IMG/VR virus record: IMGVR_UViG_3300048580_000175
Span: 1 to 40,252 of that record
Direction: 5' to 3' (one strand)
Source of the DNA: a virus
DNA: 40,252 bases
How positions within the stretch are numbered: the first letter of the stretch is position 1; each line of letters starts with the position of its first letter. The notes beneath the pieces are model-generated. The model was not told the origin of the DNA. It searched no databases and worked only from the letters and a program-made list of their open reading frames with translations. Of the stretch, positions 15,351 through 21,745 are shown piece after piece. The position numbers and the translations under genes were made by a program.

Positions 15351-15595
15351 GACTGCGCCTCCGTGCTGAAGCGCGCCATGGCGCAGAGGGTGTCGTTCGG
15401 CTGCGGCTTCATGTCCGCAGCGAAGGACCGAAACAGAGCGACGATCTGCTCCATGTCGGTGCCGTACATGGTGATCCGAATCTTCTGCTTCGAGGCAGAG
15501 CCGTCGTTGATGGTGATGACCAGCGTCGGATGCGTGCTGCCGTACAGCATCAGGTCGATGGCCTTGATGCCCGTGTCGATGTCAAAGCTTGCCAT
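15347..15595 (-). CDS. Hypothetical protein (82 aa)
   Basis: The ATG at 15595 has AAAGGA eight bases upstream. The product (MASFDIDTGIKAIDLMLYGSTHPTLVITINDG...) is a mixed alpha/beta small protein without recognisable motifs. It is the first gene after a 250-base spacer on the - strand, so it may be transcribed from a separate start in that spacer. Confidence 0.55.
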   Translation of the reverse strand: MASFDIDTGIKAIDLMLYGSTHPTLVITINDGSASKQKIRITMYGTDMEQIVALFRSFAADMKPQPNDTLCAMARFSTEAQS

Positions 15596-15842
15596 GTGTG
15601 TTGTCCTTTTGGTTGTCCTCGGGGGTGTCCCTTGGGTGCGTGTAGCGTAGTACCGGAAGCCGGAGCTTCCACAGAAATCTTGGAAATCCTGAAGGCTGAA
15701 CGACAGGTTCAGCCTTCTCCTCTCGAAGAGAGGAGATATCTCTTCTCTCCTCTTCTCTCCTTACTAGCCATGTTCGGCCATGCTCGGAGATAGTTGGGCC
15801 ATGGCCGAGCTATAGCAGGGCCATGGCTGTGCCATGCTTCGG
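15596..15842 (-). other. Structured spacer with GCCATG array and replication-gene-like relic
   Basis: No convincing gene. Contents: a GGAAGC/GCTTCC hairpin (15655-15670); an 11-base perfect stem at 15691-15717; a CCTCTC/GAGAGG hairpin near 15719-15733; a pyrimidine-rich run; and five copies of GCCATG starting at 15768, 15777, 15798, 15820 and 15831. The pyrimidine run plus the adjoining GCCATG segment resembles 24300-24410 inside the O-like replication gene, so part of this spacer may be a decayed copy of that gene. Confidence 0.55.
15691..15717. terminator. Perfect 11-bp hairpin (possible terminator)
   Basis: 15691-15701 pairs perfectly with 15707-15717 around a five-base loop. It lies in the spacer after the 31-residue membrane peptide on the - strand. 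No long T-tract follows (CAGGATTT on the - strand), so it may be an RNA-stability or attenuation hairpin. Confidence 0.4.
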
Positions 15843-15938
15843 CTAGCAGTCGAGCGCCAAGCTCACCCAGATCAGGGCGAGCAGTCCGACGATGATGAAC
15901 AGCGCCTCGGCTGCTTCCTTGATGTCGCGCTTGCTCAC
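15843..15938 (-). CDS. 31-residue single-pass membrane peptide
   Basis: The GTG at 15938 overlaps the upstream TGA (GTGA). After a short polar start (SKRDIKEAAEA) the peptide has one hydrophobic segment, LFIIVGLLALIWVSLAL, and ends in Asp-Cys. It resembles the 33-residue membrane peptide at 13506-13607 in plan but not in sequence. Function unknown. Confidence 0.5.
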   Translation of the reverse strand: MSKRDIKEAAEALFIIVGLLALIWVSLALDC

Positions 15939-16213
15939 AGGTCGTTGCCCTCCAAGTAGCAGGACACCGACTTCTCGCAGCGCGCGCGGTCGCAGTCACG
16001 GCAGAGCGGATCGCTGCCATCGTTGCCGATGCGGAGGAACGTGCGGCCCGGAATCCCGGCGACGAGCAGGTCCACGCCGCCGCCACTCGGGAGGCGGACC
16101 ACTACGATGCCATCGCCGTCGCAGGTGAGCGAGTCCACGAGAATGCCGGGCTCGCGGCAGTCCTCGCAGACATCGTTGCGGTGACGGAGGATTTCTTTCA
16201 GGCTGGGGGTCAT
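15935..16213 (-). CDS. Small zinc-ribbon-like protein (92 aa)
   Basis: The ATG at 16213 has AGGAGA upstream. The protein has two Cys pairs, CEDC (about residue 16) and CRDCDRARC (about 71), flanking a beta-rich segment (GIVVVRLPSGGGVDLLVAGIPG), consistent with one zinc site. It may bind nucleic acid or a host protein; no family was recognised. Confidence 0.6.
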   Translation of the reverse strand: MTPSLKEILRHRNDVCEDCREPGILVDSLTCDGDGIVVVRLPSGGGVDLLVAGIPGRTFLRIGNDGSDPLCRDCDRARCEKSVSCYLEGNDL

Positions 16214-16231
16214 GTGCGGGTCTCCTGTGGT

Positions 16232-16537
16232 TCAGCGCGACGAAGGGAGGTTGAGGTCCATCTTGAGGTAGCGTCGATGCGCGGCGCTACCTTCCTTGAT
16301 GTTGCGCTCGAACAGCCGCAGCTTGTGATCGCTGTAGAAGGTCGCGTGCATCGCCAGCGCGACATCCTTGAAGACGATCTCGATGTTCTCGTCATCGACG
16401 ATGACGATGTAGTTCGCCGCGCCCACGCGCAGCATCTCGCGCGCGAAGGTGCGGATGTAGCGGCACTCCTCCGGCGATTCGAGGGAGATGTCCATGAGGT
16501 ACTGCTTCGAGGCGAGCTTGGTCAGGTAGGTGTTCAT
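16232..16537 (-). CDS. Hypothetical protein (101 aa) behind a ribozyme-like leader
   Basis: The start at 16537 (MNTYLTKLASKQYLMDISL) follows AAAGGA at a five-base spacing and the shared GGACCCC leader. The product is mixed alpha/beta with ANYIVIVDDENIEIVFKDVA in the middle. No motif was recognised. It belongs to the group of - strand genes whose upstream spacers carry ribozyme motifs. Confidence 0.6.
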   Translation of the reverse strand: MNTYLTKLASKQYLMDISLESPEECRYIRTFAREMLRVGAANYIVIVDDENIEIVFKDVALAMHATFYSDHKLRLFERNIKEGSAAHRRYLKMDLNLPSSR

Positions 16538-16575
16538 GTGAGTCCTTTCTGTGGGGTCCATCCAATGTCTTTTGT

Positions 16576-16660
16576 CTGGGCTTGGGACCAGCGCACGGCA
16601 CCATGCCGCGCGGCGCATTAGCGGACGGCGAGGCTGTCCCTCGCCGCCGCCCCTCTGCTA
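16576..16660 (-). ncRNA. Permuted twister-like ribozyme element
   Basis: Read 5'-3' on the - strand: GCA (sharing its G with the TAG stop of the upstream gene), GAGGG, a closed P1 hairpin (16639-16650 with 16621-16633, loop GACAG), TAA, TGC, GCC, a P3 hairpin, then CTGG-TCCCAAGC-CCAG as P4. These are the twister core parts in order, but with P1 closed and the strand between P4 and P2 open. P2 is only TGC/GCA and no closing P5 stem is visible, so activity is less certain than for the type-P1 copies. Expected cut at the U of UAA (16620). Confidence 0.55.
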
Positions 16661-17014
16661 GGCCATCAGCACCTTCACGACGCCCTTGTCGCTGCGCTTG
16701 AACACGCACACCGGGGCATTCGCACAGCGCACGGGCGGGTGCTGCTCGTCATTGCACGGCGCGTCGCTCTCGCAGGTGTGAATCAGATCCCCGTAGCACG
16801 GATCGATCCGCGCCACATCGGGCTTCACACGGAACACGTTCATCACCTTCGAGGCCGAGATGTAGCCGCTCTGGCGAGCAAGCGAGATCGCGCTCTTCAG
16901 CTTGGGCGAGCGGCCCCAGCCGAGCGGCACCACCACGAGCCACTCCCAGCCCTCGGTCTGGGCCTCGACGCTGGAGGTGTAGGAGGGGGAGAGAACCGAC
17001 TTCATCGTCGCCAT
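16658..17014 (-). CDS. Hypothetical Cys-rich protein (118 aa)
   Basis: The ATG at 17014 follows AGGAC at about seven bases. A small hairpin (GCGGC/GCCGC) in the leader lies right beside this ribosome-binding site. The N-terminal half has GWEWLVVVPLGWGRSPKLKSAISLARQSGYISASKVMNVF, like a small winged or wedge domain; the C-terminal half has five Cys (DPCYG, HTCESDAPC, RCANAPVC), suggesting a metal site. No family was recognised. Confidence 0.6.
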   Translation of the reverse strand: MATMKSVLSPSYTSSVEAQTEGWEWLVVVPLGWGRSPKLKSAISLARQSGYISASKVMNVFRVKPDVARIDPCYGDLIHTCESDAPCNDEQHPPVRCANAPVCVFKRSDKGVVKVLMA

Positions 17015-17062
17015 GTCTGTAGTCCTGCGGCATTGCCGCATATGGGGTCCATCCAATGTCTT

Positions 17063-17148
17063 GCTGGGCTTGGGACCAGCACGCAACCCATGTTGCGCGG
17101 CGCATTAGTCGAGCGCAAGGAAAATCCCTGCGCTCGATCCCTCTGCTA
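17063..17148 (-). ncRNA. Permuted twister-like ribozyme element
   Basis: The same order as the element at 16576-16660: GCA overlapping the TAG stop, GAGGG, a closed P1 hairpin (nine perfect pairs, 17129-17137 with 17109-17117), then TAA, TGC, GCC, a P3 hairpin with GCGCAAC/GTTGCGT, and a five-pair P4 (GCTGG-TCCCAAGC-CCAGC). Conserved single-stranded bases match twister. Differences: an A/C mismatch at the base of P1 and no visible P5 closing stem. Expected cut at 17107. Confidence 0.55.
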
Positions 17149-17349
17149 CTTGCGGCGGCGCATCTCAGCGTGGAAGACGCTCGCCTCGTCACGCAGATGA
17201 CCCCCGTAGTTCCCACCCGTCTCGCGGTCGAGCGCGTCCGCTGAATCCAAAGTCTTTTGGATGTCGAGAAGAGCGTAGAAGATCTCGCGGTCGGTCATGG
17301 ACGCCGCGCGCTCTGCGGCGGCGTTCCAGTCGATTGTGTGCCGAATCAC
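17146..17349 (-). CDS. Hypothetical helical protein (67 aa)
   Basis: It starts at GTG 17349, which overlaps the stop of a 19-codon leader frame (GTGA). The product (MIRHTIDWNAAAERAASMTDREIFYALLDIQKTLD...) is helical, with an Arg/Lys tail. Function unknown. Its TAG is built into the P2 strand of the downstream permuted ribozyme. Confidence 0.6.
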   Translation of the reverse strand: MIRHTIDWNAAAERAASMTDREIFYALLDIQKTLDSADALDRETGGNYGGHLRDEASVFHAEMRRRK

Positions 17350-17405
17350 GCTTCACCTTCCACGGTCGGGTAGTCGTCGTGGAAGGTCGTTCGGTAGTTA
17401 TGCAT
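17346..17405 (-). CDS. 19-residue leader peptide MHNYRTTFHDDYPTVEGEA
   Basis: The ATG at 17405 lies behind AGGAG at the end of the twister leader and the stop overlaps the GTG of the next gene. This gives the 67-residue gene a translation-coupled entry, since that gene has no ribosome-binding site of its own. The peptide has no recognisable motif. Confidence 0.5.
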   Translation of the reverse strand: MHNYRTTFHDDYPTVEGEA

Positions 17406-17421
17406 TGCAATCTCCTATGTA

Positions 17422-17493
17422 GGGGTCCACCCCTCTGCATTTCACGGGCTTGGGACCGTCACCTGCGCGCGCAGGTGGCTGCATTAGTGGCCC
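17422..17493 (-). ncRNA. Twister ribozyme, type P1
   Basis: On the - strand: P1 CCAC (17490-17487) pairs GTGG (17430-17427), extended across a G/A mismatch by GG/CC; then TAA (predicted cut after 17486); P2 TGCA (17483-17480) with TGCA (17439-17436); GCC; P3, an 18-base perfect palindrome (17477-17460); P4 ACGG/CCGT closing the invariant loop TCCCAAGC (17455-17448); a single-stranded GAAA; and GAGGG (17435-17431), which pairs the loop CCC as pseudoknot T1. All strongly conserved twister positions I know are present. Confidence 0.85.
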
Positions 17494-17512
17494 GCCGGGG
17501 CGGGCTTTGAAA

Positions 17513-17812
17513 CTAGCTGATGGTGTAGGACTTGCGCGTCCACGCGCAGGTGGTGCTGCTGGTCATGATGCCAACCCACTCGCCATCGTAGGCCATGTCC
17601 TTGCCGACGAAGGTTTCAGCGAGGCGGCGCATGGCGGCGCTGTGATTCATGCGGGGGCCGCTGTCGTCGTCGTAGTCGTAAACGTGCGAAACAGCGGACA
17701 ACGGGGCGCTGTAGGTCGCCGTGATGGTGCGGGTGTGGGTCGCCGTGATGGTGCGGGTGCAGGTGCCGTCGCTGCCTTCGGGCGTGCTGGAAACCTTGGT
17801 GATGATCAACAT
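17513..17812 (-). CDS. Hypothetical protein with 8-residue duplication (99 aa)
   Basis: It starts at ATG 17812 behind AGGA in a leader nearly identical to its neighbours'. The protein holds a tandem TRTITATH/TRTITATY duplication caused by a 24-base direct repeat (17714-17735 and 17738-17759), then VYDYDDDSGPRMNHSAAMRRLAETFVGKDMAYDGEW. This could be a small adaptor; no family was recognised. Confidence 0.6.
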   Translation of the reverse strand: MLIITKVSSTPEGSDGTCTRTITATHTRTITATYSAPLSAVSHVYDYDDDSGPRMNHSAAMRRLAETFVGKDMAYDGEWVGIMTSSTTCAWTRKSYTIS

Positions 17813-17829
17813 ATGCAATATCCTATTCA

Positions 17830-17890
17830 GGGGTCCGTTTCGGCCTGTCTGGGCCTCTTCAGCACGGCGAAGCAGCCGTGGACGGTCCCC
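17830..17890 (-). ncRNA. Hammerhead ribozyme (stem III open)
   Basis: On the - strand: stem III GGGG-A-CCGT (17890-17882) pairs ACGG-A-CCCC (17838-17830) around one A/A mismatch. The cleavage triplet is GTC, ending at 17881. Stem I is CACGGC/GCCGTG with a six-base loop. The core CTGAAGA (17862-17856) fits CUGANGA. Stem II is GGCC/GGCC with loop CAGACA, followed by core GAA and the A that pairs U16.1. Every invariant hammerhead core base is present. It replaces the twister in an otherwise equivalent spacer. Confidence 0.88.
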
Positions 17891-17920
17891 GCGCCACAGG
17901 CGCGCGGGGTTGGTAGCGAT

Positions 17921-18391
17921 CTAGATGCCGAGCGCGCGCGCCCAAGCGTCGCTCGCCGTGCTGATGCGCTTGGGCATAAACGTCGCGCGGAAGAGCAGCG
18001 CGACCGTCTCGCACTTGTCCCAGTACGGCGCACCGTCGACCATGATCACGCACATCGGGGTGTGCAAATTGCCGCCCGATCCGTGCCAGTCGATGGCCTT
18101 CGACACCGTGCGCGGGACCGAGCGAGCCGCGAGCGTGTCGCACTTGAAGTACTCGCGCAGAGCGTCGATCTGCGGGTGATCGGCGGGCAGCAGGGCCGGG
18201 GTCACGACGCGACGCACGCGCCCGCGCTTCGCGAGCAGGCCCGCGAAGATCGTCGCCATGAATTCGCGCGGGGGCAGGCAGAGCGGCTCGCCGCGATTCT
18301 CGCCGCCCTTCGCGAGCTTATCGTAGGTCGCGAGGAATTTGCGGAGCGAGTCGCTCTCGACGGCGGCACGATTGTAGGTGGTGGAAGCCAT
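17921..18391 (-). CDS. Hypothetical protein (156 aa)
   Basis: ATG 18391 follows AGGAG. The protein (MASTTYNRAAVESDSLRKFLATYDKLAKGG...PPREFMATIFAGLLAKRGRVRRVV...) is a soluble alpha/beta protein with a basic centre and three Cys but no recognised motif. It sits between a twister (upstream) and a hammerhead (downstream), so its message should be released as an individual unit. Confidence 0.65.
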   Translation of the reverse strand: MASTTYNRAAVESDSLRKFLATYDKLAKGGENRGEPLCLPPREFMATIFAGLLAKRGRVRRVVTPALLPADHPQIDALREYFKCDTLAARSVPRTVSKAIDWHGSGGNLHTPMCVIMVDGAPYWDKCETVALLFRATFMPKRISTASDAWARALGI

Positions 18392-18408
18392 ATGAAATCT
18401 CCTTTGTA

Positions 18409-18481
18409 GGGGTCCGATCCTCTGCATTCGACGGGCTTGGAACCGTCACCGCGCACGCGCGCGGGGCTGCATTATCGGCCC
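18409..18481 (-). ncRNA. Twister ribozyme, type P1, with T1 covariation
   Basis: On the - strand: P1 CCGA/TCGG (18478-18475 with 18417-18414), TAA (predicted cut after 18474), P2 TGCA/TGCA, GCC, P3 CCGCGC/GCGCGG with a GCGT loop, and P4 ACGG/CCGT. The usual loop TCCCAAGC is TTCCAAGC here and the usual GAGGG is GAGGA, so a C-G pair of pseudoknot T1 has become U-A. P1 also differs from the copy at 17422-17493 on both strands. The matched changes argue that the fold is under selection. Confidence 0.85.
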
Positions 18482-18500
18482 GCCGTAGCGGGCTCGCGCA

Positions 18501-19253
18501 CTAGTGAATCGGGTACGCGACGACGCGCACCGCCTTGTGCCAACAGGCGCGACAGTCGCCGCACTTGCCGCCGCGCGTGCCGCTCAGGCACTTCACGAGT
18601 CCCTTGCCGATGCGCTCGCGCAGGGCGTCGAACTCGGCGTCCGTGCTGATAATCGTCGAGGATTGCGGGGCCTCGACGGTCTCGCCGTGCACGCCGTCGC
18701 TGCTATAGCGGACGGCGACGTTGGGGAGCGTCGCGATGCGCTCCAGAACCTCGCGAATCGCGGGGATTTTGTGGGAGCGCGTCGGCAGCCAGTGACGCGT
18801 GCCGGGAGTGTACGCGATGACCTGTTCGATCAACTCCGCAAGCTCGCGCGAGTCAACGTCGCCGCTATCGAACCAGCGGAAGTAGGGCAGGGGCTTGATC
18901 GCCGCGACCATGCCCGCAACCCAGCCGGGGGCGCGGTAGTCCTGCGCATTGTGGACGCGCGGGGCGCGAGTGTTCGGGAACAGGTAGCGGCCCTTTGCAG
19001 CGTAGCACGACACGCACGCCGGGACGATGTTCCCCTCAGCGTCGCGCGAGCCGGGACAATTGTCCCGCGCGACGGTACTCCAAGTCAGCGACTCGCGCGG
19101 CATCTTATCGGGCGCGCTCAGGACGGGCCGCGCGGTGCCGCCCGTCGCGAGCGAGGCAGCGGCAGCAGCGTCGATTAGCCGCACGCGCGGCGCGCGGCGC
19201 GGGAGCTTGCGGGCGGGCTTGCGGGGGGATCCGTTGGAACGCTTTGAGACCAT
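18501..19253 (-). CDS. GP88-like phage protein
   Basis: A 250-residue protein starting at ATG 19253 behind AGGAC. After a basic N-terminal tail it has DNCPGSR...CVSCYAAKGRY, a central FRWFDSGDVDSRELAELI, YTPGTRHWLPTRSHK, and a C-terminal CLSGTRGGKCGDCRACW. This is the layout of the phage Gene-product-88 family: Cys-rich, with a TIM-barrel-like centre similar to radical-SAM folds, of unknown reaction. It is the first gene of this - strand block. Confidence 0.75.
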   Translation of the reverse strand: MVSKRSNGSPRKPARKLPRRAPRVRLIDAAAAASLATGGTARPVLSAPDKMPRESLTWSTVARDNCPGSRDAEGNIVPACVSCYAAKGRYLFPNTRAPRVHNAQDYRAPGWVAGMVAAIKPLPYFRWFDSGDVDSRELAELIEQVIAYTPGTRHWLPTRSHKIPAIREVLERIATLPNVAVRYSSDGVHGETVEAPQSSTIISTDAEFDALRERIGKGLVKCLSGTRGGKCGDCRACWHKAVRVVAYPIH

Positions 19254-19264
19254 AATGCGAAGTC

Positions 19265-19385
19265 CTAGTAGGGGGTCCAATTCGAGCTTGCATCGTGCCG
19301 CGCACGATGGCACCCCGCGCGACGCGCACGCGCTCGAATATGCGGGGCTCCCCGTGCGAAGCTCTGCGAAGCTCCGCACGGGGGA
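19265..19385 (-). other. Structured leader of the GP88-like gene
   Basis: On the - strand: a hairpin with nine outer pairs CCCCGTGCG/CGCACGGGG, then a three-way-junction-like fold with stem TTCGAGC/GCTCGAA enclosing a short GCGCG/CGCGC stem and an eight-pair stem CATCGTGC/GCACGATG. It ends in GGACCCCC and AGGAC like the ribozyme leaders. No twister, hammerhead, HDV or pistol core was recognised. Confidence 0.5.
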
Positions 19386-19412
19386 ATAACCTACGGCCAC
19401 AGGTCACGCGTC

Positions 19413-19496
19413 TAGACGATTGCCGCCCCCTAAGTGAGGCGGCCAAGCTGCGCGGGAGGGCTACTCCGGCGCCTTCGGATGCACGACAATCGTCTA
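19413..19496. repeat. Long stem-loop (10-bp inverted repeat with branched loop)
   Basis: TAGACGATTG (19413-19422) pairs CAATCGTCTA (19487-19496). The 64-base loop contains GCCGCC/GGCGGC and GGAG/CTCC stems. It could be part of the 5' leader RNA of the - operon or a DNA cruciform at an origin. Confidence 0.5.
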
Positions 19497-19949
19497 CACG
19501 GTGCCACGGCGCGCCGATCGGCTTCGGCGCGCACGTTGGCTTCAAGTTGGTAAAGAGGGCGGTGCGGCGACGTCGTCGCGACGTTGCCTGCAAGCTCTTG
19601 CGCGCTTGCTCGCCCCGCTCGACGGTGTCGGGGGCGGTGCGGGCCGCTTTCGCCCCGCACGGTTTCGATTGTAGCGCCCTGTATATCGGTTGCGCGAAAT
19701 AAATCCTTTAGCCCGCCGGGCGCGCTCGCTCTAAACCTTTGCGGGACAGGCACTTACAACGCCCCGAAATATTTCCGGAAAAGGCTTCGCGGCCCCTTCC
19801 ATCGGGGCATACCAGCGCCCCTACCATCGGTCCCCAGCGCGCGCACGCTTCCGGTGCGGCGCGGCAAGCTCGCGACGTTGGCGGGGGCGAGAATGCGGAC
19901 CGGGCGCCACGGGTCACTTGCACCCGGCACCCCACCCCCCCCCCGGCAA

Positions 19950-20075
19950 TGCAACTTCCTACATTGCGACATCCTACGCCCGGCGTGCCGCTCGCCCGCA
20001 ATGCGACATCCTAGGCGCGCCTCGTTTGCGACATCCTAGCTTGCAACTTCCTAGGCTCCCCATTGCGACATCCTA
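19950..20075 (+). repeat. Six iteron-like direct repeats TGC(G/A)AC(A/T)TCCTA
   Basis: Twelve-base repeats start at 19950, 19965, 20002, 20027, 20042 and 20064, all in the same orientation. Four are TGCGACATCCTA and two (19950, 20042) are TGCAACTTCCTA. Both variants sit 15 bases from a neighbour of the other type. Direct repeats of this kind bind replication initiators or repressors; an O-like initiator gene is present at 23946-24773. Confidence 0.75.
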
Positions 20076-20125
20076 GACGGGGCGAGTGGCGCGACGGCGG
20101 GGGGGCGAGGCGACTACACCGTTGG

Positions 20126-20195
20126 GCGCGGCGCGGGGCGTAGCGCGGCGTGGCGCGGGGCGTGGCGCGGCCCGCCCGGCCCGCCCGGCCCGCCT
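20126..20195. repeat. GC-rich tandem repeats
   Basis: Two imperfect copies of a GCGCGGGGCGTRGCGCGG unit are followed by CCCGCCCGGC-type repeats. The segment is almost pure G+C and directly follows the iteron-like array. Confidence 0.6.
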
Positions 20196-20197
20196 CA

Positions 20198-20312
20198 GGT
20201 CGGCGCTTGCTCGCGGGTCCCATCCGTGGATCGTTCCATTTCAATTACCCTCGCCCGGTGGCCCAGCCATCCCCTGCCCGTCTTGGTCGGCGTTTGCTAG
20301 CAGGTGCCATCT
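20198..20312 (+). promoter_or_regulatory. Pair of imperfect direct repeats upstream of the + gene
   Basis: 20198-20225 and 20285-20312 share GGTCGGCG(C/T)TTGCT and the following GGT(C/G)CCATC, with 87 bases between starts. The second copy ends about 50 bases before the ATG at 20360. They may be operators or remnants of a duplicated promoter. Confidence 0.35.
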
Positions 20313-20359
20313 AGGTCGTAGTTTGGCGTAGGGTCCCCATATGGTAGTGTTGTGTGCAT

Positions 20360-20956
20360 ATGGCAAAGGCAACGGACGAGAATGGCGACCCTGTGTTCTT
20401 CCGTAAGGAGGGCGAGGGCGTGTCTGAGGGTCGTACTAGGTTCTTGAAGGCGAAGACGCGGGGCGCTGTGAAGAGCGTCCAGAACAAGCGTGCGAAGGCT
20501 TTGTCGAACCTGCGTGCTGCCTTGGCTCGTTGCGAGGAGTTGGGTGTGGACGCTTCTGAGGTGTTGCCTATGAGCAACGGCACGAAGCAGGGTAGCTTGA
20601 AGGCAGCGGTGAGGAGTTTGCTGACGGAGGACAAGAGTTTCCTGATTGGTCAGCAGCTATTGCAGGGGGCTCTGGACCCTAGCAATCCTCGACAGTTGGA
20701 TTTCATTTCCAGACTGAAGGAATGGGTAGACGGTCTGGAGACTCAGAAGAGCGAGCGTATGGAGGTTCAGAAGCGTGTTGTTCTGAACTTGGGAGGGACG
20801 ACCCCCTTCGCTGCTCCGCAAGACCAGCGTACTTTGCAGAACGTTGTACCCCCGGTGGGGGTACTGCCGCCCCCTGTCATCCCCCACAAAATGCTGGTTT
20901 TAGGGGGGGTCTGTCAAGAGGGTAGGAAGCAAGAAGTTCCTAAGCCGTTGCCCTGA
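20360..20956 (+). CDS. Possible small terminase subunit or DNA-binding protein
   Basis: A 198-residue protein alone on the + strand between two - strand blocks. A basic N-terminus (RTRFLKAKTRGAVKSVQNKRAKALSNLRAALARC) is followed by a helical middle with LLQGALDPSNPRQLDFISRLKEWVDGLE, which has the feel of small terminase subunits (helical, ending in a beta/Pro-rich tail). No small terminase subunit was found elsewhere in the window. The evidence is weak. No good Shine-Dalgarno precedes ATG 20360. The 3' end is unusually repetitive in C and G and includes a perfect eight-base hairpin (20846-20864). Confidence 0.55.
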   Translation: MAKATDENGDPVFFRKEGEGVSEGRTRFLKAKTRGAVKSVQNKRAKALSNLRAALARCEELGVDASEVLPMSNGTKQGSLKAAVRSLLTEDKSFLIGQQLLQGALDPSNPRQLDFISRLKEWVDGLETQKSERMEVQKRVVLNLGGTTPFAAPQDQRTLQNVVPPVGVLPPPVIPHKMLVLGGVCQEGRKQEVPKPLP

Positions 20957-21414: not shown

Positions 21415-21745
21415 GGTCGCACCATGAGATGTCTAGGAACTCTGGGGTAGCGGGGGGAACGGGTCCGATAGCGGTCGCTTGGAGCTTGCAGAGGAGGCAG
21501 ACGCGGTGGAAGAGCTTTCCGTCTACGGGGTCTTCCACCAGCGTAGCAACGGCATCCCAGTCGCTCCAGAAGTGTTCACACTTTTGCATCCTGCGGATGT
21601 GGTCCACCATGAGGTTGGCTTCGACCGAGTCGATGTAGCACTCGGGGCAGAGGCCGCGCTTGGCTGCTGCGAAGTCCAGCGGGCTGTCCTGAGAAGACAG
21701 AGGGGTCAGGCAGGAGCGGCACTCAAGCTTCTTTCTTTTTGCCAT
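21389..21745 (-). CDS. Zinc-binding phage protein (118 aa)
   Basis: It begins [18 protein letters not shown] with a first Cys pair (CRSC), then CPEC about 22 residues later, giving a treble-clef-like four-Cys site. A second group (CEHFW...RVCLLCKL) resembles the C-x-H and CxxC ends of another ribbon. A role in transcription control or nucleic-acid binding is likely. It overlaps the RHH-like gene by 23 bases. Confidence 0.6.

Follow-up and report, generated by a model that had tools for sequence, protein, structure and literature searches.

A predicted RNA-processing cassette of self-cleaving ribozymes and hairpins repeated along a phage operon

We analyzed a single IMG/VR virus record (IMGVR_UViG_3300048580_000175; all 40,252 bases, hereafter the window), with a focus on a block of short genes whose spacers carry predicted self-cleaving ribozymes. 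The virus is a tailed phage, based on its terminase, head, head-tail adaptor, and exonuclease genes. A nucleotide search against annotated phages gave no match, and no tRNA was found in the window. The block spans positions 19253-16232 on the - strand and comprises six short genes or gene pairs. Gene 1 belongs to the Gp88 family (PF17338; Pfam E 9e-28), and the other genes, where searched, matched no protein family. Relatives of genes 2 and 5 were sought in viral contigs, and none were found. The genes beyond gene 6 are closely spaced and carry no ribozymes. The features of the block and its upstream region are listed below, with lengths in nucleotides (nt) or amino acids (aa), open reading frames as ORFs, and the hepatitis delta virus abbreviated as HDV.

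19254..20353, - strand: presumed source of the array transcript, 1.1 kb without convincing genes (gene layout; promoter presumed)
19350..19383, - strand: hairpin ahead of the HDV-like element, 14-nt arms, 93% complementary, 6-nt loop, ending 1 nt before the predicted cut (repeat search, fold)
19281..19348, - strand: HDV-like ribozyme candidate, predicted cut between 19349 and 19348 (double-pseudoknot descriptor)
19272..19278, - strand: GGACCCC leader element before gene 1 (sequence identity)
18415-18409, 17836-17830, 17428-17422, 17050-17044, and 16559-16553, - strand: other GGACCCC copies (sequence identity)
18501..19253, - strand: gene 1, Gp88 family, 250 aa, stop TAG (Pfam)
18479..18493, - strand: hairpin GCCCGC-UACG-GCGGG(C), abutting P1 twister 1 (hairpin scan, fold)
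18414..18478, - strand: type-P1 twister 1, predicted cut after 18474 (Rfam RF03160, 47 bits, E 2e-7)
17921..18391, - strand: gene 2, protein without known family, 156 aa, stop TAG (ORF)
17887..17909, - strand: hairpin CCCCGCGC-gccugug-GCGCGGGG ahead of the hammerhead (fold)
17835..17885, - strand: type III hammerhead, predicted cut after 17881 (complete core, three stems, minimum free energy (MFE) fold, partial Rfam RF00008)
17513..17812, - strand: gene 3, protein without assigned family, 99 aa, stop TAG (ORF)
17491..17505, - strand: hairpin GCCCGCC-CC-GGCGGG(C), abutting P1 twister 2 (hairpin scan)
17427..17490, - strand: type-P1 twister 2, predicted cut after 17486 (Rfam RF03160, 66.1 bits, E 6e-13)
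17146..17405, - strand: gene 4, stop TAG (19-aa leader ORF 17405-17346 overlapping a 67-aa ORF, 17349-17146)
17064..17147, - strand: type-P5 twister 1, predicted cut after 17107 (Rfam RF02684, 41.9 bits, E 2e-5, above gathering)
16658..17014, - strand: gene 5, protein without known family, 118 aa, stop TAG (ORF)
16576..16659, - strand: type-P5 twister 2, predicted cut after 16620 (Rfam RF02684, 35.4 bits, E 7e-4)
16232..16537, - strand: gene 6, protein without assigned family, 101 aa (ORF)

The six predicted ribozymes, of three unrelated folds, precede six consecutive genes, and after each of them come GGACCCC, a ribosome-binding site, and a start codon. A preliminary description, made from the letters alone, had placed five ribozymes between a TAG stop and the next ribosome-binding site. 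All five upstream genes do end in TAG, and the five ribozymes lie where they had been placed, four twisters being recognized by Rfam and the hammerhead by its complete core. The cleavage positions proposed for them (17486, 18474, 17881, 17107, and 16620) all agree with the sequence. The 1.1 kb divergent region is bounded by the first array gene and, on the + strand, by a gene at 20354-20956. In this noncoding region, a 14-nt repeat, TTGCGACATCCTAG, occurs five times at 19964-20076 (one copy 86% identical) and perhaps marks a regulator-binding or origin region. A scan of 15500-20500 found no sigma-70-like promoter site, and no terminator-like site was found on the - strand inside the block. A local promoter ahead of each gene was considered less likely, given that the block has no sigma-70-like site, other promoter types being possible.

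The twisters were searched with Rfam covariance models over the 40 kb window, with gathering scores of 67.2 for twister-P1 (RF03160) and 37.6 for Twister-P5 (RF02684). The search resulted in four full-length twister matches, one above the curated threshold and one 1.1 bits under it, and nothing else credible as a ribozyme was found by Rfam elsewhere in the window. The two expected type-P1 twisters were recovered with E 6e-13 and 2e-7. The two elements described earlier as twister-like permuted copies are present (E 2e-5 and 7e-4); they are not merely twister-like but represent the known type-P5 permutation. Twisters cleave between the U and A of UAAUGC. Both P5 twisters begin within the TAG stop (taGCAGAGG), and their own P1 forms a long hairpin just ahead of the predicted cut. 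The P5 copies differ by paired changes in the stem following TAATGC, and the P1 copies by paired changes in P1 and P3; the GGUUCC/GAGGA paired change of P1 copy 1 was found again in an unrelated phage. No twister core occurred in 33.9 Mb of dinucleotide-shuffled window DNA.

The hammerhead core is complete, with CUGAAGA, GAAA, GUC, and A15.1-U16.1, and its stems have 6, 4, and 4 pairs. The order is GUC, then stem I, CUGAAGA, stem II, GAAA, and stem III, which is open, and energy folding agrees with this type III structure. On the shuffled DNA, the hammerhead descriptor gave 5 matches per 33.9 Mb, or about 0.012 per window. At the gathering threshold, Rfam recovers one of the six elements, and the others needed lower thresholds and descriptors. 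The covariance-model check proposed earlier gave twister matches, one of them above gathering, and a hammerhead match below threshold.

The count of five ribozymes was confirmed but is probably too low, since a sixth candidate lies before the first gene. The context of stop, hairpin, ribozyme, and ribosome-binding site drew attention to it. Read along 19348-19281, its proposed HDV-like fold starts with GCCCCGC (P1), AUA, UUCGAGC (P2), GCG (P3), UGCGCGU, CGC (P3'), and GCGGGGU (P1', with a G-U first pair). It continues with GC, CAUCGUGC (P4), GCG, GCACGAUG (P4'), CAA, and GCUCGAA (P2'). The descriptor found a 7-bp P1, P2, P3, P1.1, P4, a nested double pseudoknot, and the catalytic C in J4/2. 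This was its sole match in 1.66 Mb of loci plus the window, and the shuffles gave 2 matches in 33.9 Mb. Taking fold and position together, we consider it quite probable that 19348-19281 is an HDV-like ribozyme. Just upstream of this candidate lies a 17-nt inverted repeat (88% complementary; arms 19409-19425 and 19484-19500, 58 nt apart), a possible leader RNA structure.

Besides the HDV-like candidate, two shared elements had gone unnoticed in the preliminary description: the hairpins ahead of the P1-twister, hammerhead, and HDV-like elements, and the GGACCCC after all six ribozymes. A GC hairpin stands directly ahead of the HDV-like element, both P1 twisters, and the hammerhead, and none stands ahead of the two P5 twisters. 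The six GGACCCC copies of the block are identical, each lying directly or at most 16 nt after a ribozyme, and just two more copies occur in the window. The same heptamer follows ribozymes of three different classes (16553-19278, - strand). In some copies it looks possible that GGACCCC extends the open ribozyme stem by pairing with GGGG of the upstream hairpin. Viral contigs were also scanned for GGUCCCAAGCCC followed by GGACCCC, and the three matches, all within genes, were judged to be chance.

Elsewhere in the window, a strong GC hairpin, GGGGCGGCGC...GCGUCGCCCC (13503-13442, - strand), follows a stop codon without a T-tail and without a ribozyme, so hairpin-only gene ends do occur in this phage. 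Such a gene end, together with the hairpins found in about 30% of the ordinary spacers of related contigs, lends some plausibility to the view that the spacers of the block are ordinary GC-rich gene-end hairpins that resemble ribozymes by chance. We regard this as very improbable, because the twister models match at these places with E 6e-13 to 7e-4 and nowhere else in 40 kb, and because 33.9 Mb of shuffles yielded 0 twister cores, 5 hammerhead matches, and 2 HDV-like descriptor matches.

Ribozyme arrays, some of them mixed, were also found in other viral records. The 77-kb phage record G019, retrieved with the twister pattern, carries four P1-type twisters (42510, 45350, 46103, and 48410) and a type III hammerhead (42954) on one strand. 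The first of these twisters scores as P5 too, and the hammerhead core is CUGAAGA, the same as in the window hammerhead. Most of the G019 ribozymes are followed by a common leader, ACAGAGGAA..ATG. Judged from these predicted elements, G019 is an independent mixed twister/hammerhead array in a phage unrelated to the window phage. Additionally, G038 combines type I hammerheads with a P1 twister on one strand, four loci (L216, L222, L223, and L224) hold arrays of two to four P5 twisters, and in L092 the arrays consist of type I hammerheads, as many as six or seven. Among 32 Gp88 loci gathered by protein similarity alone, five (L005, L007, L013, L018, and L033) carry a type III hammerhead with an abutting hairpin 0.7-1.1 kb upstream of the Gp88-family gene.

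The relation between hairpins and ribozyme topology was then compared across phage ribozymes. The sample was drawn from viral contigs by core pattern (120 hammerhead, 26 P1-twister, and 16 P5-twister stretches) and comprised 212 non-redundant ribozymes. A hairpin was counted if it ended at most 8 nt from the 5' edge of the ribozyme. Where the topology has no built-in terminal hairpin (type III hammerhead, P1 twister), an abutting hairpin was present in 55 of 75 cases, against 24 of 137 where a hairpin is built in (type I hammerhead, P5 twister; Fisher p 9e-16). By class, the counts were 35/46 for type III hammerheads, 20/29 for P1 twisters, 20/113 for type I hammerheads, and 4/24 for P5 twisters, with a shuffle expectation of 0.13-0.19 in all classes. 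Counted by contig, the comparison was 41/56 versus 8/85 (p 3e-15). Type I hammerheads have a stem III (mean 6.3 pairs) that itself terminates at the cut. Against ordinary spacers of the same contigs, hairpins were found in 66 of 87 versus 62 of 204 (score of at least 15, p 8e-13), the score threshold being our own choice and three thresholds agreeing in this comparison. A hairpin of the form GGGAGUGUCUUCAAAGACACUCCC recurs directly ahead of type III hammerheads in five loci (L112, L126, L137, L139, and L185).

Only 1 of the 66 hairpins ahead of ribozymes has a T-rich tail, which argues that they are not terminators; intrinsic termination was rejected on this count and because the - strand of the block has no terminator-like site. 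A hairpin is usually added where none is built in, so nearly all topologies tend to leave the upstream RNA with a terminal hairpin. From these sequence patterns, selection appears to favor cuts after which the upstream message ends in a 3' hairpin.

We therefore propose, as the probable reading of the block, an RNA-processing cassette repeated along the phage operon, whose cuts would leave each upstream message with a protective 3' hairpin. One long - strand RNA would be transcribed from the 1.1 kb divergent region, and the six spacers, whose folds are supported by sequence, would each form a self-cleaving ribozyme that cuts during or after transcription. Five of the predicted cuts lie shortly after a stop codon, the sixth being in the leader of gene 1. 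The upstream RNA would end in a stable hairpin a few nt from its 2',3'-cyclic-phosphate end; in the type-P5 twisters this hairpin would be their own P1, and in the P1 twisters, the hammerhead, and the HDV-like element it would be the separate, added one. The downstream message would begin with a 5'-OH, followed by the stereotyped leader of GGACCCC, ribosome-binding site, and ATG. In bacteria, RNA with a 5'-OH is a poor substrate for 5'-phosphate-dependent decay. This would yield short messages, shielded at either end and independent in stability, presumably with no RNase required. The ribozyme classes seem interchangeable because just the cut and the hairpin end would matter, and the use of different classes may also avoid long DNA repeats prone to recombination.

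The preliminary description had suggested that the phage divides a single long transcript into one message per gene, presumably without a host nuclease. The three fold classes, G019, and the hairpin rule support such processing, but the ribozyme in the leader of gene 1 means that gene separation cannot be the whole purpose; a ribozyme ahead of the first gene suggests that making a defined 5' end matters too. Its further suggestion, that cleavage itself and not the particular RNA is selected, agrees well with the occupation of equivalent sites by three fold classes, with the second mixed-array phage, and with the hairpin rule. A broader version, for which we see the chances as evenly balanced, is that phages share a modular mRNA-finishing device composed, in fixed order, of a stop, the future 3'-end hairpin, any ribozyme, a phage-specific leader, and a start. 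Ribozymes of unrelated origin would be drop-in parts of such a device, and circular permutation would decide whether a hairpin has to be added. If true, small phage ribozymes would gain a defined function in forming protected mRNA ends.

The ribozyme ahead of gene 1, where no gene needs separating, also fits a different purpose, in which the ribozymes cut to control the downstream gene by removing upstream RNA and coupling ribosomes and by creating a defined 5'-OH leader, and the hairpin merely insulates the ribozyme against the sequence and the ribosomes upstream of it. The GGACCCC leader common to all six ribozymes and the other leader shared by the G019 ribozymes point the same way. However, an insulator would be expected for type I hammerheads as well, whose 5' edge is also an open stem, yet these show a hairpin in only 20 of 113 cases, near the shuffle expectation. 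It is lacking precisely in those topologies whose product has a terminal hairpin already. That the main purpose is control of the downstream gene is thus rather unlikely.

Several observations weigh against the cassette as proposed. The existence of one single transcript is assumed. For the hammerhead, the complete type III core, the three stems, and the MFE fold bear out the earlier claim, and the Rfam RF00008 match is weak and partial (17.6 bits against a threshold of 48.5, E 0.12 even in a 101-nt search). That threshold is strict, since other phage hammerheads with canonical cores also score under it (41.9-44.2 bits), but the window hammerhead is still much weaker; it also lacks the loop sequences common among other phage type III hammerheads. 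For the HDV-like candidate, the descriptor was composed after the candidate had been noticed, and no Rfam HDV model matches 19348-19281 at E up to 10. HDV-like ribozymes have the J4/2 consensus form C-N-R-A. The candidate departs from it, reading C-A-A-G, or C-A-A given one extra P2 pair, and a rival nested fold is about as stable (-36.9 vs roughly -36 kcal/mol for P1 to P4 with pseudoknot terms left out). As for the hairpin rule, sampling by core pattern favors canonical ribozymes, type I and type III hammerheads belong for the most part to separate phages, and the contigs carrying both topologies, five in number, are divided, three for the rule and two against. Finally, seven relatives of the window phage were found, with terminases 80-97% identical, and the sole one with a comparably long record, the 44-kb G049, is without the ribozyme block, having unrelated genes there, many of them on the other strand.

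G049 retains the flanking genes (SSB-like, Gp157-like, and others), and other ribozymes were sought at the place of the block and none were found. In the remaining relatives, all of them fragments (4 to 19 kb), no ribozyme matched, which carries little weight. From this comparison, the array looks like an accessory module. A cluster of GCCATGGC-type palindromes lies at 15770-15845 (- strand), ahead of the operon of the SSB-like gene, and G049 has GCATGC palindromes at the corresponding place (21460-21510); position and palindromic character have been kept and the sequence has changed. A 97-aa protein encoded at 15350-15057 (- strand) has C-terminal (Glu-Thr) repeats specified by tandem GAAACC units (15120-15060).

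An accessory block replaced by unrelated genes in G049, with no relatives detected for genes 2 and 5, would also be expected if the ribozymes were active but selfish or neutral, that is, a mobile block of ribozyme-bearing genes cut without benefit to the phage. The placement from stop to ribosome-binding site, the common leader, the paired changes between copies, and the hairpin rule over many contigs all argue instead for a maintained function, and we hold a selfish or neutral block to be improbable.

What hammerhead and twister ribozymes do in most genomes has been called largely speculative (PMC5408937). Three classes in equivalent positions and the topology-hairpin rule lead to a specific prediction, that the selected product is the upstream message ending in a hairpin. 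The succession of stop, hairpin, ribozyme, and ribosome-binding site could also be searched for in phage spacers, as a signature of ribozyme classes that are weak or not yet known.

Among known systems, the early mRNA of T7 is cut between genes by host RNase III, the polycistronic transcript giving messages that end in a stabilizing hairpin, with a 5' phosphate left. The predicted cassette resembles it in its cut messages with a stabilizing terminal hairpin and differs in that it would cut itself and leave a 5'-OH. The HDV-like theta ribozymes of gut phages adjoin tRNAs (PMC10879173); the window candidate shares their phage setting and, as proposed, their HDV-like fold but precedes a protein gene, in a window without tRNA. 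It is known that twisters occur a few kilobases or less from hammerheads and in the vicinity of specific genes (PMC5408937). The window twisters have the same conserved cores and permutations as the known P1 and P5 families (RF03160, RF02684), but they form an array of four in one phage operon, together with a hammerhead and an HDV-like candidate, and their P5 copies start inside the stop codon.

The closest likeness in layout is to prophage tandem hammerheads, which flank single genes or short blocks and cleave in vitro and in E. coli (Perreault et al. 2011, PMC3088659). These authors proposed that long phage transcripts are processed into gene-length mRNAs. In both cases at least two ribozymes lie on one strand between genes, here five between a stop and the next ribosome-binding site and one in the leader of gene 1. 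The prophage arrays consist of hammerheads only, whereas the window operon has three fold classes in equivalent sites, and the searched text of PMC3088659 mentions neither product-end hairpins nor a common leader. No paper on a three-class array or on the hairpin rule was found, which is weak evidence of novelty, as most subscription journals lay outside the literature search. The array is thus not new in kind, tandem prophage hammerheads and the co-location of twisters and hammerheads being already known; it draws its interest from ribozyme classes that interchange in a single operon and from a testable rule for the purpose of cutting.

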